Origin: Acidimicrobiia bacterium | Lineage (GTDB): Bacteria; Actinomycetota; Acidimicrobiia; IMCC26256; PALSA-555 | DNA length: 33,913 nt | Reading direction: 5' to 3' | Assembly: GCA_040881685.1 (NCBI GenBank) | Contig: JBBECS010000039.1 | Coordinates: forward strand, 34,226-68,138 | Shown: positions 4,739-20,508 of the stretch, piece by piece | Layout: each line of letters opens with the position of its first letter | How positions within the stretch are numbered: position 1 is the stretch's first letter | Made by a program: the position numbers and the translations under genes | Notes under the pieces: model-generated | The model's input: only the letters and a program-made list of their open reading frames with translations | Database searches by the model: none | Told to the model about the DNA's origin: nothing

Positions 4739-6124
4739 TTAGGCCGGGCAGGGCAAGGCGGTCGCGGCCCCCACCTTGATGAGGCCGTGCCCGAGATCGG
4801 TGATGTTGGTCGTGTGCGACGTGGGCCAGCTCGAGATCGCCTCCTCGTAGACCCGCACCGCGGTGGCTTCGAGCATCGCCTTCACGTCGGCCGACGTCGT
4901 CGCACCGTGGTCGAAGAGCGACGGGCACTTCTGGAGAAGCAGCGCGGCCGCCGCGGCCACGTGGGGCGAAGCCATCGACGTGCCGCTGAGGAACTGGTAT
5001 GCGCTGGACGACCCGACGTAGGTGGAGATGGTCTGGTTCCCTGGCGCGGCCACGTCGATGTAGCCGAGGACTTGCGGCCAGGTGGACACCCGTTTGCGCG
5101 GGTTGAAGTTCGAGAACGACGCGCGCTCGTCTCCTTCAGTCGTCGCGGCCACGGCGATCAGATCGGTGTCGGGGCCTGCGGCCGGGAACAGTGCCTGGTT
5201 CGCGACGTCGCAGTTCGTGTTGGGGCCGGCGCCGCAGTTCCCGCCGGCCGCGACCACAACCAGTCCTGCCGTGAGCGCCGCCTGGATCGCATTCTGGATC
5301 GCCTGGCTGCACGACGGCCCACCAAGGCTGAGGTTAATGATGTCGGCGTTTCCCTGGAGCGGGTTGGCGGCCCAGGCGATGCCGGACGCGACGTTGCCCT
5401 CGCCCCCGCTCCCTTGCGCGTTGAGCACGCGGATCGGGACGATCGTTGCCAGTGGCGCGCCGCCAACGACCCCGTCGGAGTTGTCGCTCGCGGCGGCGAT
5501 CCCGGCCACGTGCGTGCCGTGCCCGTGGTCGTCGTCCGTGGCGTCGAGGTTTCCCTCGACGAAGTCCCAGCCGCTCGCGATGTCCACCCGACCGAGAAGG
5601 TCCTCATGAGTGGCCACCACGCCGCTGTCGACGATCGCGATCCGCACCCCGGTGCCATCGAGACCGCTCGCCCACGCGGTCTCGAAGTCCGCGTGCGCGA
5701 GCTTCGGCCCGTACTGCTGACCGCTCGCGAAAAAGTCGTCGTCGCTCGGGTCAACGAGGAGCGCCGACACCAGCCGGTTGGGCTCGACGGTGAGCACGTC
5801 GCCCTCGGCCTCGAGCTGGGCAACCTCGGCGTCGAGCTCGGCCTCCGACGCCGCGGTGAAGGTGACGTACTCGTGCTCGTCGCTCGGTCCCGGCTGCTCG
5901 ACCGTCGCGACGTACTCGACCGGCGCGGTCGGCGTGGGCGTGGGCTCGGGTGCTGCTGACCCCGCGGGGCACAGGGCCTGCGCGCCGACATCGTCGGCCG
6001 CGGTCGCGGCGGGGCCAACCGGCGAGGGTGGTGACGGCTGCGGTGCTGCGGGGAGGACCGGGTGGCACGCGGCAAGCGCCAGGACGGCGAGCAGCACCCA
6101 CGACGGCCGGACACTCACGCGCAT
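4739..6124 (-). CDS. S8 family serine peptidase, predicted lipoprotein (A)
   Basis: Exported subtilisin-type protease of 461 aa. A lipoprotein signal peptide ends in the lipobox LAAC with C20, followed by a Pro-rich spacer. A propeptide-like region covers about 65-125. The catalytic triad is D166 (IAIVDSGV), H202 (HGTHVAGI) and S383 (GTSMASPHV), with the oxyanion Asn at N296. The last residues are CPA; C400 (LQKCP) and the final Cys could form a disulfide, a pattern shared with the neighbouring paralogue. ATG 6124 is chosen over in-frame GTG 6151 because it gives a compact signal peptide and has AAAGG about 11 nt upstream. It is probably co-directional with gene B, 103 bp away. The substrate is unknown. 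Confidence 0.88.
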   Translation of the reverse strand: MRVSVRPSWVLLAVLALAACHPVLPAAPQPSPPSPVGPAATAADDVGAQALCPAGSAAPEPTPTPTAPVEYVATVEQPGPSDEHEYVTFTAASEAELDAEVAQLEAEGDVLTVEPNRLVSALLVDPSDDDFFASGQQYGPKLAHADFETAWASGLDGTGVRIAIVDSGVVATHEDLLGRVDIASGWDFVEGNLDATDDDHGHGTHVAGIAAASDNSDGVVGGAPLATIVPIRVLNAQGSGGEGNVASGIAWAANPLQGNADIINLSLGGPSCSQAIQNAIQAALTAGLVVVAAGGNCGAGPNTNCDVANQALFPAAGPDTDLIAVAATTEGDERASFSNFNPRKRVSTWPQVLGYIDVAAPGNQTISTYVGSSSAYQFLSGTSMASPHVAAAAALLLQKCPSLFDHGATTSADVKAMLEATAVRVYEEAISSWPTSHTTNITDLGHGLIKVGAATALPCPA

Positions 6125-6190
6125 GGTGCTCGCCGCCTTTCGGGTGGCCACCGAGCCGTCTGGTACTTCGTCTCGTGCACGGAGGCCCTT

Positions 6191-6227: not shown

Positions 6228-7481
6228 TCAGGCGGGGCAGGGTGCGGAAGTCGCGCCGCCGGCTTGGACGAGGCTGGCGCCCATGCCCGCGATCACCGGG
6301 CTCGCGGTGGACCGCAACCGGTTCAGCACCTTGTCGGCGACGCTCGACCCGTTCGCGGGACCGTTCGCGATCGCCGGGCAATGCTGGAGCACGAGCGCGA
6401 CCGCGGCCGACACGTACGGCGCCGCCATGGACGTGCCATCCATCGTTGTGTAGGTGTTGGGACCGGGCTTGTAGGTCGAGAGGATCGACGAGCCGGGAGC
6501 ACCGAGGTCCACGAACGGCGTTCCCCAGTTCGAGAACGACGACTTGGTGTTGCTCCAAGTCGTGGAGCCCACCGCGATGACCTCACCCTCGAAGCCGGCG
6601 GGGAAGATCGGGACGTTCGAGTTGCCATTGCCCGCGGCGGCGACCACGACCGCGCCCTGAGCCTCCGCGTAGTCGACCGCGATCTGCTCGCTCGAGGAAC
6701 AATGGGCCCCGCCCAGGCTGAGGCTGATGACGTCGGCGTTGCCCTTGGTTGGGTCGGCGGCCCAGAGGATCCCGTCGACGACGTCGGAGGTGAACCCGGA
6801 CCCGTTCGCCCCGAGCACGCGGACGGGCACGATGGTGGCACCGGGCGCGCCACCCAGACCGCCCAACCCGTTGTCCGATGCCGCAGCGATGCCGGCGACG
6901 TGCGTACCGTGGCCGTGAGGGTCTTCGGTGCCGGTGTTGTTGCCAATGGTATCGACGAAGTCGTTGCCGTTGACTGTGTCGACACGCCCCGCGAGATCCT
7001 CGTGCGTGGCGGTGACGCCAGTGTCGAGGATCGCGATCCTCACACCCGTGCCATCGAACCCTGCAGTCCACGCGGCACCGAACCCTGCGTTGACCAGGCC
7101 CCATTGCTCGGAAGAACGGGGGTCGGAGGTGACCAGGGCGGCGACCGGCTCATCGGGCTCGACGACGACGACCGTGCCGTCGTCTTCGAGCTCGTCGATG
7201 TGCGCCGCCTTGTCGGCGGCGGAGGTCGCGGTGAACGTCTCGACCTCGAGCGGGCCGGCGCCCGGCTCGTCGACCACCGCGACGTAGTCAACCGGGTCGG
7301 CAGGGGTCGGCGCGGCGGTGCTGCCACAGCCCTGGACCGATGCGGGCGGAGGGGGCGGTGGGGGCGGGGGCGGGGGGAGCTTGACGCAGGCCGTCAGCCC
7401 GAGCGCGCCGACACCAACCATCCACAAGGCTCGACGCGTCGCTGCTGTGCCCATGGTCGTCGTTGACCCGGCGCGTGCCAT
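6228..7481 (-). CDS. S8 family serine peptidase, predicted lipoprotein (B)
   Basis: A 417-aa paralogue of the downstream subtilisin. The signal peptide ends in LTAC (lipobox Cys C32), then a run of 11 prolines that probably spans the cell-envelope layer. The triad is D153 (IAILDTGV), H191 (HGTHVAGI) and S351 (GTSMAAPYV), with Asn 285 in the oxyanion hole. It ends in PCPA and has the matching internal Cys in LVLQHCP. ATG 7481 gives the positively charged n-region MARAGSTTTMGTAATRR; ATG 7454 is an alternative. There is no strong Shine-Dalgarno. No type VII secretion genes are nearby, so a mycosin role is not supported. Confidence 0.88.
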   Translation of the reverse strand: MARAGSTTTMGTAATRRALWMVGVGALGLTACVKLPPPPPPPPPPPASVQGCGSTAAPTPADPVDYVAVVDEPGAGPLEVETFTATSAADKAAHIDELEDDGTVVVVEPDEPVAALVTSDPRSSEQWGLVNAGFGAAWTAGFDGTGVRIAILDTGVTATHEDLAGRVDTVNGNDFVDTIGNNTGTEDPHGHGTHVAGIAAASDNGLGGLGGAPGATIVPVRVLGANGSGFTSDVVDGILWAADPTKGNADVISLSLGGAHCSSSEQIAVDYAEAQGAVVVAAAGNGNSNVPIFPAGFEGEVIAVGSTTWSNTKSSFSNWGTPFVDLGAPGSSILSTYKPGPNTYTTMDGTSMAAPYVSAAVALVLQHCPAIANGPANGSSVADKVLNRLRSTASPVIAGMGASLVQAGGATSAPCPA

Positions 7482-7870
7482 CACGAAAATGCTCGAGTGC
7501 GGTTCATGAGCCCTCGTTTTCTGCTTCGGGTCCAACGAAGAAAACCGGCACCCAACTCTCCGCACACAGTGCAGAGATGGGGCCGGTTTCGCCTGGCTCC
7601 CCGCCGTCCCTAGCGACCAAATGACACAGACGGCGGATCGTCGCCTCCCCGAGCAGGTGGCTCGATCGTCCTCGCCCCAGCCACTCTTTGTGGCAGGGCT
7701 CCCTCATCTAACCACTTAGGGTGGTGGTGGTCAACCTCTGGCGAGGTCCGAGGATGCCCCGGGTAAGCCTGAGCGCTGTCATGACCTCCAGACCCCCTGG
7801 CGTCCAACCTGTCCCCACCGCCGGATGCGGCCTAACCTGCGATCTCCGCCGAGCGCACGGGTGAGCCGAG
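7482..7870. other. 389-bp intergenic region with RNA-like hairpins
   Basis: No credible protein gene was found on either strand. Minus strand: a long stem-loop at 7587-7544 (see the separate entry) and GCCAC/GTGGC around 7679-7694. Plus strand: a possible -10 TAGGGT (7717-7722), then an interrupted 10-bp pairing TCTGG(CG)AGGTC / GACCTCCAGA at about 7736-7792. A second plus-strand -10 candidate, TAACCT, lies at 7833-7838. I could not match it to RNase P RNA, tmRNA, SRP RNA or any riboswitch consensus I know. It is most simply the divergent leader/promoter region of subtilisin B and bL37. Confidence 0.4.
7544..7587 (-). terminator. Long stem-loop followed by U-rich tract (minus strand)
   Basis: On the minus strand ACCGGC pairs with GCCGGT, CCCA with TGGG, and CTCTGCAC with GTGCGGAG (one G-U) around a small loop, then TTTTCTTCG follows. 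This resembles an intrinsic terminator or attenuator in the leader of subtilisin B, about 60-100 nt before its ATG. It could also end an unrecognised small RNA. Confidence 0.45.
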
Positions 7871-16624: not shown

Positions 16625-17758
16625 ATGCCCCCGGATCCGGCCGCCATCGTTCTGCCGCCCGACCTGCGGCCTGCCGACGGGCGCTTCGGGTCGGGCCCGT
16701 CCAAGGTGCGGCCCGAGGCGGTCGCCCGGCTCGCCGAGGCCGCACCCACCTATCTCGGCACGAGCCACCGACGAGACGGAGTGCGTGCGGTCGTCCGGCG
16801 CATCCGCGAGGGTTTGCGCGAGCTCTACACGCTCCCTGCTGGCCACGAAGTGCTGCTCGGGAACGGTGGCACAACCGCGTTCTGGGACGCAGCGGCGTTC
16901 GGTCTCGTCGAGCAGCGCAGCGAGCACCTCGTCTTCGGCGAGTTCTCGGGCAAGTTCGCCGCCGTCACTGCCGGTGCGCCGCACCTCGACGAGCCTGTCG
17001 TCATCGAATCCGAACCAGGGACGCATCCGGAGTGGAAGGACGACGCCGGCTGCGACGTGCTCGCCACGACACACAACGAGACATCCACCGGCGTCACCAT
17101 GAACGAGCTCGAGCCGCCGTTCAGTCACGAGCGCAGCATCGTGCTCGTGGACGCGACCTCCGCCGCCGGGGCGATCGACGTCGCGGCAGATGCTTTCGAC
17201 GTCTACTACTTCGCGCCGCAGAAGGCGTTCGCGAGCGAAGGCGGGCTCTGGCTCGCGCTCTGCTCCCCCTCGGCACTCGACCGCATCGAGCGCATCGGCA
17301 GCACCAACCGGTGGCAACCACCGTCTCTGAGCCTTCCGATCGCGTTGGAGAACTCGCGGCTCGACCAGACCTACAACACGCCCGCGTTGACCACGCTGTT
17401 CCTCCTCGTCGACACCATCGAATGGATGCTTGGCAACGGAGGGCTCGCATGGTCCGTTGCGCGCTGCAAGCAGTCGGCCACCACCATGTACGGCTGGGCG
17501 GAAGCCAGCGAGTTCGCGACGCCCTTCGTGCACAAGCCGTCCGAGCGCAGCCCCGTGAACGCCACGATCGACTTCGACGGCGTGCAGGCTGATGACATCG
17601 CTGCGACCTTGCGCGCCAATGGCATCGTCGACGTGGAGTCGTACCGCAAGCTCGGTCGCAACCAGCTGCGCATCGCGATGTTCCCGGCGATCGAGCCCGA
17701 CGACATCGAGGTCCTCACGCACGCGATCGACCACATCGTGGAGGCACTCACCGCGTGA
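16625..17758 (+). CDS. serC: Phosphoserine aminotransferase
   Basis: PLP-dependent class V aminotransferase of serine synthesis (3-phosphohydroxypyruvate plus glutamate to phosphoserine). The 377-aa protein has the N-terminal FGSGPSKVRPE, the LLGNGGTTAFWD segment, THNETSTGV, the VDATSAAGA loop and the PLP lysine K200 in YYFAPQKAFASEGG. The end contains the LRIAMFPAIEPDDIEVL pattern of the actinobacterial form. ATG 16625 fits the short leaderless spacing. The stop overlaps the GTG of the next gene (GTGA). Confidence 0.93.
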   Translation: MPPDPAAIVLPPDLRPADGRFGSGPSKVRPEAVARLAEAAPTYLGTSHRRDGVRAVVRRIREGLRELYTLPAGHEVLLGNGGTTAFWDAAAFGLVEQRSEHLVFGEFSGKFAAVTAGAPHLDEPVVIESEPGTHPEWKDDAGCDVLATTHNETSTGVTMNELEPPFSHERSIVLVDATSAAGAIDVAADAFDVYYFAPQKAFASEGGLWLALCSPSALDRIERIGSTNRWQPPSLSLPIALENSRLDQTYNTPALTTLFLLVDTIEWMLGNGGLAWSVARCKQSATTMYGWAEASEFATPFVHKPSERSPVNATIDFDGVQADDIAATLRANGIVDVESYRKLGRNQLRIAMFPAIEPDDIEVLTHAIDHIVEALTA

Positions 17759-19191
17759 GCACCACGCTGCCCGATGGGCTCGTGGCCATCGTGAAGCGTG
17801 ACTGTCCGACGTGCCAGCTCGTCGTCCCGGTGCTCGGCCAGCTCGCCGAGGGTGAAGAGCCACTGACCGTGTTCACCCAGGACGATCCGACCTTCCCCGA
17901 GGAGCTCCATCCGGTGGACGACACGTCGCTCGAGGTGTCGCTCGCCCTCGATCTCGACACCGTCCCCACGGTGGTGCGGGTGACCGACGGACACGAGGTC
18001 GCCCGCATCGTCGGATGGAGCCGCGATGAGTGGGAGGCGTTCACCGGCCGGGCCGGGCTGGGTGACGGCCTGCCGCCGCACCGTCCCGGGTGCGGGTCGC
18101 TCACCCAGGATCCCGATTTCGCTGCGACACGCGCCGCGGCCGAAGGCGCGGCGCGCCTCAACTCCCGACGCATCGAGCTCGGCGAGCACGAGGACGAGAT
18201 GGAGTCGATGTTCGAGCGAGGCTGGAGCGACGGTCTCCCGCTCGTGCCACCGACCCCGGCGCGCGTCGCCCGCATGCTCACTGGCACGACGCGCGACGCC
18301 GACGAGATCGTCGCCGAAGTGCCGCCCGACCTCGTCGGGTGCACCGTCGAGAAGATCGCGATCAACGCCGTGATGGCCGGGTGCCGGCCCGAGTACCTGC
18401 CCGTCGTGCTCGCGGCCGTCGAGGCGGCGTGCACGGAGGAGTTCAACATCCACGGCGTGCTTGCGACGACCATGCCGGTCGGACCGATCGTGATCGTGAA
18501 CGGGCCAATCGCCCGGGCAATCGGCATGAACTCCGGCGGCAACGCGCTCGGTCAGGGCAACCGGGCCAACGCCACGATCGGGCGCGCCCTTCAGCTCGTG
18601 ATCCGCAACGTGGGTGGCGGGCGCCCAGGCGAGGTCGATCGCGCCACGCACGGCAACCCGGGCAAGTACACGTTCTGCTTCGCGGAAGACGAGCAGGGAT
18701 CGCCGTGGGAGCCGCTGCACGTGTTCCGCGGCTTCGAACCCGGTCAGTCGGCGGTCACCCTTTTCGCCGGCGAAGGACCACGCGTTGTCGTCGACCAGCT
18801 GTCGCGAGAAGCCGACTCACTCGTGCGCACGTACGCCGCGTGCCTACGGACCGTCGCGCACCCGAAGACCGTGGTCGCCATCGACGCGACCCTGGTGGTC
18901 GGCCCCGAGCACGCTCGAGTGCTTCGCGAGGCGGGGTGGAGCCGAGCACGGCTCCTCGAGGAGCTCGCCGCGCTCCTCCAGCTCAACGGGGCCGAGCTCA
19001 TACGGGGTGCAGGCGGGATCGCCGAAGGTATGCCTGAGGCTTTTGCCGACACGGTGCTCCCGAAGTTCCGTGACGGCGGGCTGCTCGTGGTCCACGCTGG
19101 TGGTGGCGCGGGCCTGTTCTCGGAGATCATCGGAGGCTGGGCCGGCGGTGCGATCGGCAGCGAGCCCGTCACTCGGGAGGTGCGCACATGA
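17755..19191 (+). CDS. Thioredoxin-like N-domain fused to a large uncharacterised domain
   Basis: The 478-aa protein (GTG start) begins with a thioredoxin-fold domain at about 1-97 carrying C17-P-T-C20 and a cis-Pro segment DTVPTVV (P71). A linker follows with RPGCGS (C113). The rest (about 140-478) is a large domain I cannot name, with DGLPLVPPTPARVARML, CTVEKIAINAVMAGCRPEYL, IVNGPIARAIGMNSGGNALG and RANATIGRALQLVIRNVGG. The CxxC suggests thiol-disulfide exchange. The gene starts by GTGA overlap with serC and is followed 95 bp later by a UGSC-family selenoprotein, so a redox partnership is a reasonable inference. It has no signal peptide and should be cytoplasmic. Confidence 0.75.
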   Translation: MSTTLPDGLVAIVKRDCPTCQLVVPVLGQLAEGEEPLTVFTQDDPTFPEELHPVDDTSLEVSLALDLDTVPTVVRVTDGHEVARIVGWSRDEWEAFTGRAGLGDGLPPHRPGCGSLTQDPDFAATRAAAEGAARLNSRRIELGEHEDEMESMFERGWSDGLPLVPPTPARVARMLTGTTRDADEIVAEVPPDLVGCTVEKIAINAVMAGCRPEYLPVVLAAVEAACTEEFNIHGVLATTMPVGPIVIVNGPIARAIGMNSGGNALGQGNRANATIGRALQLVIRNVGGGRPGEVDRATHGNPGKYTFCFAEDEQGSPWEPLHVFRGFEPGQSAVTLFAGEGPRVVVDQLSREADSLVRTYAACLRTVAHPKTVVAIDATLVVGPEHARVLREAGWSRARLLEELAALLQLNGAELIRGAGGIAEGMPEAFADTVLPKFRDGGLLVVHAGGGAGLFSEIIGGWAGGAIGSEPVTREVRT

Positions 19192-19286: not shown

Positions 19287-19802
19287 ATGAGTCGGTTCGT
19301 GCTCGACCCCACCGGAGAGCTGGCGCCCGCGACGCGAGAGCGCACGCCTCGACCCACCTCGCTCGACGGCAAGACCGTCGGCCTCCTCGACATCAGCAAG
19401 GCTCGCGGCGACGTGTTCCTCGATCGCATCGAGGAACGCCTCGAAGAGCGCGGGCTGAAGGTGGAGCGCTTCCGCAAGCCGACGTTCACCAAGGTCGCGC
19501 CGATCGACCTGCGCCATGAGATCTCACAGAAGTGCGACGTGGTGATCGAGGCGCTCGCCGACTGAGGCTCGTGCACGTCGTGCAGTGTGCACGACATCGT
19601 GAACCTCGAAGGCTTGGGCATCCCGTCGGTGTTCGTCGCGTCGAGTGAGTTCATCGACGGCGCGGATGCGCAGGCGAAGTCCCTCGGCGCCGATCCGGCG
19701 CGAGTCTTCGTGCCCCACCCGATCCAGGACCGGACCGATGAGGAGATGCGGGCACTCGCCGACGCCGCGGTGGACGAGCTGCTCGGTCGTCTGATCGACT
19801 GA
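19287..19802 (+). CDS. UGSC family selenoprotein (Sec encoded by in-frame TGA at 19563-19565)
   Basis: The frame runs 171 codons if TGA 19563-19565 is read as selenocysteine. Residues 93-99 are then U-G-S-C-T-S-C, the signature of the UGSC (seleno)protein family, whose cysteine forms have CGSC. Before U93 come a KTVGLLDISKARGDVFLD strand, an EERLEERGLKVER helix, an FRKPTFTK stretch and CDVVIEALAD. After it come HDIVNLEGLGIPSVFVASSEF and RVFVPHPIQDRTDEEM, with no loss of frame. Both halves are needed for the family fold, and a perfect stem-loop follows the TGA. A redox-active U/C pair is inferred; the reaction is unknown. The true stop is a second TGA at 19800-19802. Automated callers would split this gene at 19565. 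Confidence 0.88.
19563..19594 (+). promoter_or_regulatory. Candidate bacterial SECIS with Sec UGA
   Basis: Three bases after the UGA, TCGTGCAC (19569-19576) pairs perfectly with GTGCACGA (19587-19594) around the 10-nt loop GTCGTGCAGT, whose first base is G. The apical loop begins 11 nt after the UGA, the distance known for E. coli fdhF. A competing smaller fold TGCACG-T-CGTGCA exists. SelB binding is inferred from these features. Confidence 0.75.
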
Positions 19803-19806
19803 GCCC

Positions 19807-20508
19807 ATGTTCCTACTGCACGAGGTTCACCGGGTCCGTGGCGCGCACGAAGTAGAGTTCGAAGCGGATTTCCGCGACGGCTGGCTCCCAGAGCTCGCCA
19901 AGGGTGACGGCGCGCGTCTTCTCTACTTCATGCATCTCGCCCACGGATCCGGTCGCGCGTACGTGGTCACCACGGTCACCGCGGTGCGCGACGGCGCGGC
20001 ATGGGAGCGCCTGGCCGGTCGCGTACAGGACGGCGACCTACGCGCGCTCGCGCGCGACACCGACCAACACCGGCACCAGGTGCACGCCAAGTTCCTCCTG
20101 ACCGTGCCGTGGGCACCACCCGTCGCCGATATCGACGAGGTGCCGACGACGCCTCAGGATCACGAGCTCACGTTGTTCATGGAGGACACCGCCTGGCCTC
20201 ATGAGGGAATGCTCGACGACTACCTGGAGGCCGCGCGCACGCACTACGCGCCGAGCATCTCCGAAGGTCGCGGCCGAGGGATCCTCGAGCTGCTGTCGGT
20301 GTTCCAGACTGCGTGGGGAACCGGCCGACGGGCCGAGGTCATCCTCTGGCAGCACATCACCGACCACGACCGGTTGAAGAACCTGCTGCTCACCGAGGTG
20401 CCGCCTGAATACCGGGCCCCCGGCACGTGGATGCACGACGCGCTACGCGTCCGTGACGACTGGGAGAGCCGCCTGCTCCGCACGACCGCCTGGTCGCCGC
20501 TCGCTTGA
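19807..20508 (+). CDS. NIPSNAP-like family protein
   Basis: The 233-aa protein begins MFLLHEVHRVRGAHEVEFEA and has a LLYFMHLAHGSGRAYVVTTV strand; the second half repeats the pattern (FQTAWGTGRRAEVILWQHI), suggesting two ferredoxin-like (dimeric alpha-beta barrel) domains as in NIPSNAP proteins. No catalytic motif is evident. The ATG lies 4 bp after the selenoprotein stop, so the two are co-transcribed. Function unknown. Confidence 0.65.
   Translation: MFLLHEVHRVRGAHEVEFEADFRDGWLPELAKGDGARLLYFMHLAHGSGRAYVVTTVTAVRDGAAWERLAGRVQDGDLRALARDTDQHRHQVHAKFLLTVPWAPPVADIDEVPTTPQDHELTLFMEDTAWPHEGMLDDYLEAARTHYAPSISEGRGRGILELLSVFQTAWGTGRRAEVILWQHITDHDRLKNLLLTEVPPEYRAPGTWMHDALRVRDDWESRLLRTTAWSPLA

Follow-up and report, generated by a model that had tools for sequence, protein, structure and literature searches.

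We analyzed a 33,913-nucleotide stretch of DNA (the window) from an Acidimicrobiia bacterium and focused on a gene of the UGSC family and its immediate neighbors (Table 1). Standard gene calling reports this gene as two open reading frames in the same frame, one of 92 aa (19287-19565) and one of 71 aa (from a GTG at 19587 to 19802). The only break between them is the TGA at 19563-19565. Reading through this codon gives ...EALAD-U93-GSCTSCSVHD..., which places the motif UGSCTSC at residues 93-99, and the 171-codon gene ends at a second TGA (19800-19802). The whole read-through frame matched both NF041046 ('UGSC family (seleno)protein'; 159.8 bits, cut-off 125) and PF24696 (153.8 bits, cut-off 25), and family sequence therefore lies on both sides of the internal TGA. 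The [U/C]GSC motif, in which the first position is selenocysteine (Sec) or Cys, was found here as U93-G-S-C and with Cys in paralogues. These ORF calls, the translation and the family matches bear out the initial annotation, which had described two frames split only by a TGA, the UGSCTSC motif, family-like sequence on either side of it, a known family with Sec or Cys at this residue and a gene that ordinary gene calling would break. The same misannotation was seen elsewhere: for a Sec-form (TGA) UGSC gene on the IncP plasmid p2-T1 of Acidovorax sp. T1 (L219, 5992-6282; ...SGD*GSCTSWSVHD), the annotated ORF has ~96 codons and stops at approximately the position of the TGA.

Table 1. Features of the UGSC locus, in coordinates of the window
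Feature	Position	Strand	Description
Partner gene, 478 aa	17755..19191	+	Predicted N-terminal thioredoxin fold with CPTC (residues ~1-99), followed by a C-domain of ~330 aa
UGSC family selenoprotein gene (predicted)	19287..19802	+	171 residues with Sec93; NF041046 and PF24696 matches across the read-through frame
In-frame TGA, very probable selenocysteine codon (residue 93)	19563..19565	+	TGA in relatives, Cys paralogues, Sec machinery in the genome
Bacterial SECIS hairpin (predicted)	19577..19595	+	Stem 19577-19584/19588-19595 (8 bp), loop GUG 19585-19587, 19 nt after the UGA
Downstream gene, 233 aa	19807..20508	+	No Pfam or NCBIfam family

By its profile matches, the gene at 19287-19802 is a member of an already known family, described as 'UGSC-containing protein' in PMC2398784. 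It shares with that family a full-length match, the UGSC motif, Sec or Cys at the same residue and a SECIS element after the UGA. We found no essential difference between them; in the source genome, one UGSC copy has Sec and two paralogues have Cys. According to PMC2398784, UGSC is among the commonest families in metagenomic selenoproteomes, with 255 Sec sequences vs 21 Cys sequences, and few selenoprotein families are as common in aquatic metagenomes. The literature we found on the family gives no function for it.

The initial annotation proposed that this lineage uses selenocysteine, and we searched the source assembly (3.1 Mb in 54 contigs) for the decoding machinery. All four components were found: selA (contig 2, 150175-151473; 469.6 bits), selB in one frame directly behind it (contig 2, 151485-153245; 283.1 bits), selD (contig 13, 27250-28194; 403.9 bits) and selC, the tRNA-Sec gene (contig 2, 125999-126088; 66.8 bits), which ARAGORN called as tRNA-SeC with anticodon tca. 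Thus selB and tRNA-Sec, whose lack would count against selenocysteine, are both present, and the stated completeness of the genome is 100%. Formate dehydrogenase, sought as a further Sec user in this genome, gave only matches below the cut-off. In 80/80 relatives retrieved from named genomes the Sec codon is TGA, and aligned homologues with Cys at the same residue exist. By record title, the 80 named loci come from Acidimicrobiia and other Actinomycetota, Deltaproteobacteria/Myxococcota, Chloroflexi, Gemmatimonadota and Latescibacterota. We also surveyed 296 genomes of the class, in which Sec and Cys tallies are among the matches listed, that is, the better-scoring places. On that basis selA is present in 80 of the 82 genomes with a TGA form and absent from 8 of the 11 with only Cys forms (p = 7e-8, among the matches listed). 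The two TGA-form genomes without a selA match are 79% (G185) and 96% (G291) complete.

The initial annotation also described a perfect 8-bp stem with a 10-nt, G-first loop right after the TGA as a fit to a bacterial SECIS. This hairpin is present (TCGTGCAC at 19569-19576 pairing with GTGCACGA at 19587-19594), but its loop begins 11 nt after the UGA, and both loop and spacing fall outside the published model for bacterial elements, which allows loops of 3-9 nt and spacings of 16-37 nt (PMC13188914). Only 21-35% of relatives form its three outer pairs, whose absence from most of them led us to reject it as the conserved SECIS. Comparison among relatives indicates that the conserved SECIS is a register-shifted hairpin, GUCGUGCA-GUG-UGCACGAC, with a 3-nt loop that begins G-U. 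Its 8 bp, GUG loop, 19-nt spacing and folding energy of -10.9 kcal/mol when folded alone all lie within the published model (PMC13188914). In a 40-nt context the two registers are nearly isoenergetic in the window (-12.4 and -12.0 kcal/mol). The 40-nt fold showed no excess stability over shuffles for the single sequence (z = -0.24), and the window by itself therefore gave no basis for judging the hairpin; the exact TGA-plus-hairpin pattern occurs in it once (0 expected).

The evidence for the shifted hairpin comes from 81 loci. Codons +6, +7, +8 and +10 are TGC, AGT, GTG and GAC in 81/81 loci, whereas Ser +2 is encoded by six different codons and Cys +3 by two. The loci were retrieved with degenerate-codon back-translations of peptide patterns, a search that does not account for the fixed synonymous codons. 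Pair 18-30 varies in a compensatory manner (G-C in 63 loci, A-U in 12, G-U in 5) and is never a mismatch. We compared stem pairing with a null of 2000 rounds of synonymous recoding that used the family's own codon usage. The 81 loci keep 7.90 of the 8 stem pairs vs 4.85 expected, and divergent Sec paralogues keep 7.20 vs 4.77 expected; 0/2000 recodings reached the observed value in either set, although the sequences are related and the counts are not independent. More distant Sec paralogues retain the stem but build it from other letters, such as GUCGUGGA-GUG-UCCACGAC. Cys paralogues, in contrast, are near the null (4.78 pairs vs 4.27 expected, 62/2000) and have mostly lost the hairpin. Two regex matches in the paralogue scan (L055 and L056) were non-UGSC and were removed before these statistics. 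Sec and Cys forms thus differ clearly in their retention of the hairpin.

These results bear on whether the TGA could be a true stop, produced by a pseudogene or a sequencing error, so that only a 92-aa fragment is made. The two ORFs from standard gene calling and the ordinary stability of the isolated hairpin relative to shuffles agree with such a stop. The same TGA in 80 of 80 independent named records, the strong protein conservation on either side, the synonymous constraint on the SECIS after the TGA and the Sec genes in the genome make it very improbable. That the TGA is read as another amino acid through a code change or a suppressor is more improbable still, for although the read-through frame alone cannot name the residue, TGA is a normal stop next door (17755-19191) and at the gene's own end, homologues have Cys rather than Trp or Gly, tRNA-Sec and SelB are present, and the hairpin is conserved in TGA forms but near the null in Cys forms. 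We conclude that the UGA at 19563-19565 is almost certainly decoded as selenocysteine, a reading for which sequence could hardly give greater certainty.

The two further UGSC genes in the source genome both encode Cys and lie on contig 45 (28274-28786 and 30920-31429). Each adjoins a paralogue of the C-domain of the partner protein, and the two pairs flank a 309-aa gene, one on each side, that, judged by eye, looks like an IclR-type regulator. One of these Cys paralogues (CGSCTSWSVHD; L051, 6906-7442) has a full eight-pair SECIS-like hairpin after its TGC codon. The intact hairpin suggests a recent Sec-to-Cys change and is perhaps a relic of the Sec codon. Cys paralogues with degraded or intact hairpins, including this intact one, offer a view of Sec-to-Cys exchange.

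The gene upstream of UGSC encodes a protein whose N-terminal ~100 residues resemble thioredoxin (TIGR01068, PF00085) in predicted fold and in having a CxxC motif (CPTC, residues 17-20). Residues 1-99 matched thioredoxins with Z scores of 9.0-9.6 in the fold search. The protein differs from thioredoxin in its weak sequence match (TIGR01068 was weakly matched by 35/39 members of the partner family) and in its fusion to a domain of ~330 aa without a family. For this C-domain, Pfam and NCBIfam searches over the 39 members returned only thioredoxin-type or weak scattered matches. The PDB fold search with the partner gave a list filled by thioredoxin-domain matches, and PDB sequence searches with UGSC and with the partner gave no match. 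The fusion to thioredoxin is a feature of this subfamily, and paralogues of the partner do not have the thioredoxin part.

In the named loci UGSC almost always has the partner beside it; the locus that departs from this (L103) is at a contig edge. Among the 296 genomes of the class survey, UGSC is present in 104, the partner in 104 and both in 102 (p ~1e-74). Among the matches listed, the partner lies 5' on the same strand in 78 of the 80 UGSC places above the cut-off. The gap between the two genes has a median of 100 nt, and three gaps exceed 300 nt. The pairing extends to plasmids. An Arthrobacter plasmid has the gene order trxB-trxA-partner-UGSC, a Variovorax plasmid has trxB, two genes, the partner and then UGSC (trxB thus being four genes upstream of UGSC), and a Natrinema plasmid has UGSC followed by the partner. 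Only in close relatives, about ten of the 80 loci (for example, L062, L064, L067 and L078), is UGSC followed directly by a homologue of the gene at 19807-20508. Judged by gene content and order, UGSC is co-inherited with a partner family that has no Pfam or NCBIfam model, and the partner is near-obligate.

Thioredoxin is fused to the C-domain in the window, and trxA is a separate gene next to the partner on the Arthrobacter plasmid; such a fusion in one lineage, matched by adjacent genes in another, classically points to a functional link. A fusion of UGSC to a domain named 'Unknown_1' is shown in PMC2398784, and this domain may belong to the same family as the partner. The literature found on UGSC, which for PMC2398784 means the article outside its supplements, contains no report of the link between partner and UGSC. 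The UGSC family itself was already known; the partner link and the corrected SECIS are newly added here.

We examined a structural model of UGSC (pLDDT 95.1), which is a five-stranded alternating alpha/beta protein. Sec93 lies right after strand 3 at the N-terminus of the third helix, within a UxxCxxC motif. Flavodoxins and other Rossmann-like proteins were among the best matches in the fold search, and the fold is predicted to be flavodoxin-like rather than thioredoxin-like; the absence of thioredoxin from the fold list is no proof of this. The flavodoxin-like fold is very common, and fold matches say little about function. The top match, a chain of the methyl-coenzyme M reductase activation complex (8s7v_H; Z 11.8), was rejected as a functional clue since a designed protein scored equally high and the fold is widespread. 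The predicted fold disagrees with an earlier guess, made in PMC2398784, that UGSC has a thioredoxin fold. That UGSC is itself thioredoxin-like would alter the mechanism but leave the selenocysteine unaffected. The UxxC motif and the statement in PMC2398784 speak for a thioredoxin-like UGSC, but we consider it unlikely given the modeled topology with its flavodoxin-type matches, the location of the thioredoxin fold in the partner and the rarity of UGSC without that partner.

The Sec region of UGSC resembles that of selenoprotein B of glycine, sarcosine and betaine reductase (GrdB; TIGR01917, PF07355). An hhalign comparison with GrdB-like proteins aligned Sec on Sec over 76 columns (E 3e-4, probability 40%). 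In both proteins Sec is followed by G-[ST]-x-T-x-C and lies in a UxxCxxC motif, and both have a similar helix and a P-x-x-D stretch. GrdB, however, is ~430 aa long vs 171 aa for UGSC. TIGR01917 matched only the C-terminal part of UGSC (14.9 bits, cut-off 602.2; E 0.0096), and we rejected the assignment of UGSC as a glycine reductase selenoprotein B (TIGR01917/PF07355) since there was no full-length match above the cut-off. PF07355 had no match in the source genome. We found no similarity between the GrdB-like profile and the partner, to which the GrdB analogy therefore does not extend. Relatedness of the Sec domains is plausible from these alignments, which make a weak to moderate case for a link between UGSC and GrdB. 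GrdB-like actinobacterial proteins (PF07355) at loci L205-L215, such as L206 (1231-2523, minus strand), have an in-frame TGA followed by GTGTRCGSTLAKELERAGIPT. The PF07355 match at these loci ends just before Sec; the model covers only the part before Sec, and read-through is needed.

We propose a model for the function of the UGSC locus. SelB and tRNA-Sec would decode the UGA as selenocysteine, directed by the hairpin at 19577-19595, and UGSC would act with the protein encoded just upstream. The large C-domain of the partner would bind or activate a substrate, and the Sec of UGSC would attack the substrate so held or activated. The Sec proteins of glycine reductase and proline reductase are thought to attack their substrates likewise. 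The oxidized UxxC of UGSC, a selenenyl-sulfide, would most likely be reduced by the thioredoxin domain of the partner or by TrxA. The pair would then follow the logic of glycine/proline reductase selenoprotein B as a thioredoxin-fed reductase, with UGSC as the selenol subunit, a mechanism we put forward tentatively and by analogy. The substrate is probably a small organic acid or a related metabolite. On plasmids, the neighbors of UGSC include genes for a tripartite tricarboxylate transporter, IclR/LysR regulators and a CoA-ligase, a weak hint of small organic substrates. More broadly, it is possible, though short of probable, that UGSC and its partner each supply one subunit of a thioredoxin-driven reductase, as yet undescribed, that occurs in bacteria and haloarchaea. 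UGSC would then be a small protein related to the Sec domain of GrdB/PrdB, and the C-domain of the partner would represent a new family of substrate-activating enzymes. The partner is a first concrete clue to the role of UGSC. With the near-obligate thioredoxin-domain partner and the trxB-trxA-partner-UGSC order on the Arthrobacter plasmid, a specific biochemical hypothesis can now be tested, and the corrected SECIS identifies the right RNA for mutation.

Elsewhere in the window, a c-di-GMP-II-GAG riboswitch (Rfam RF03169; 49.8 bits, cut-off 40) lies at 7572-7657 on the minus strand. It immediately precedes a subtilase gene (6228-7565; PF00082), which a second subtilase gene adjoins (4739-6151). 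This arrangement suggests c-di-GMP control of the subtilase protease encoded at 6228-7565.
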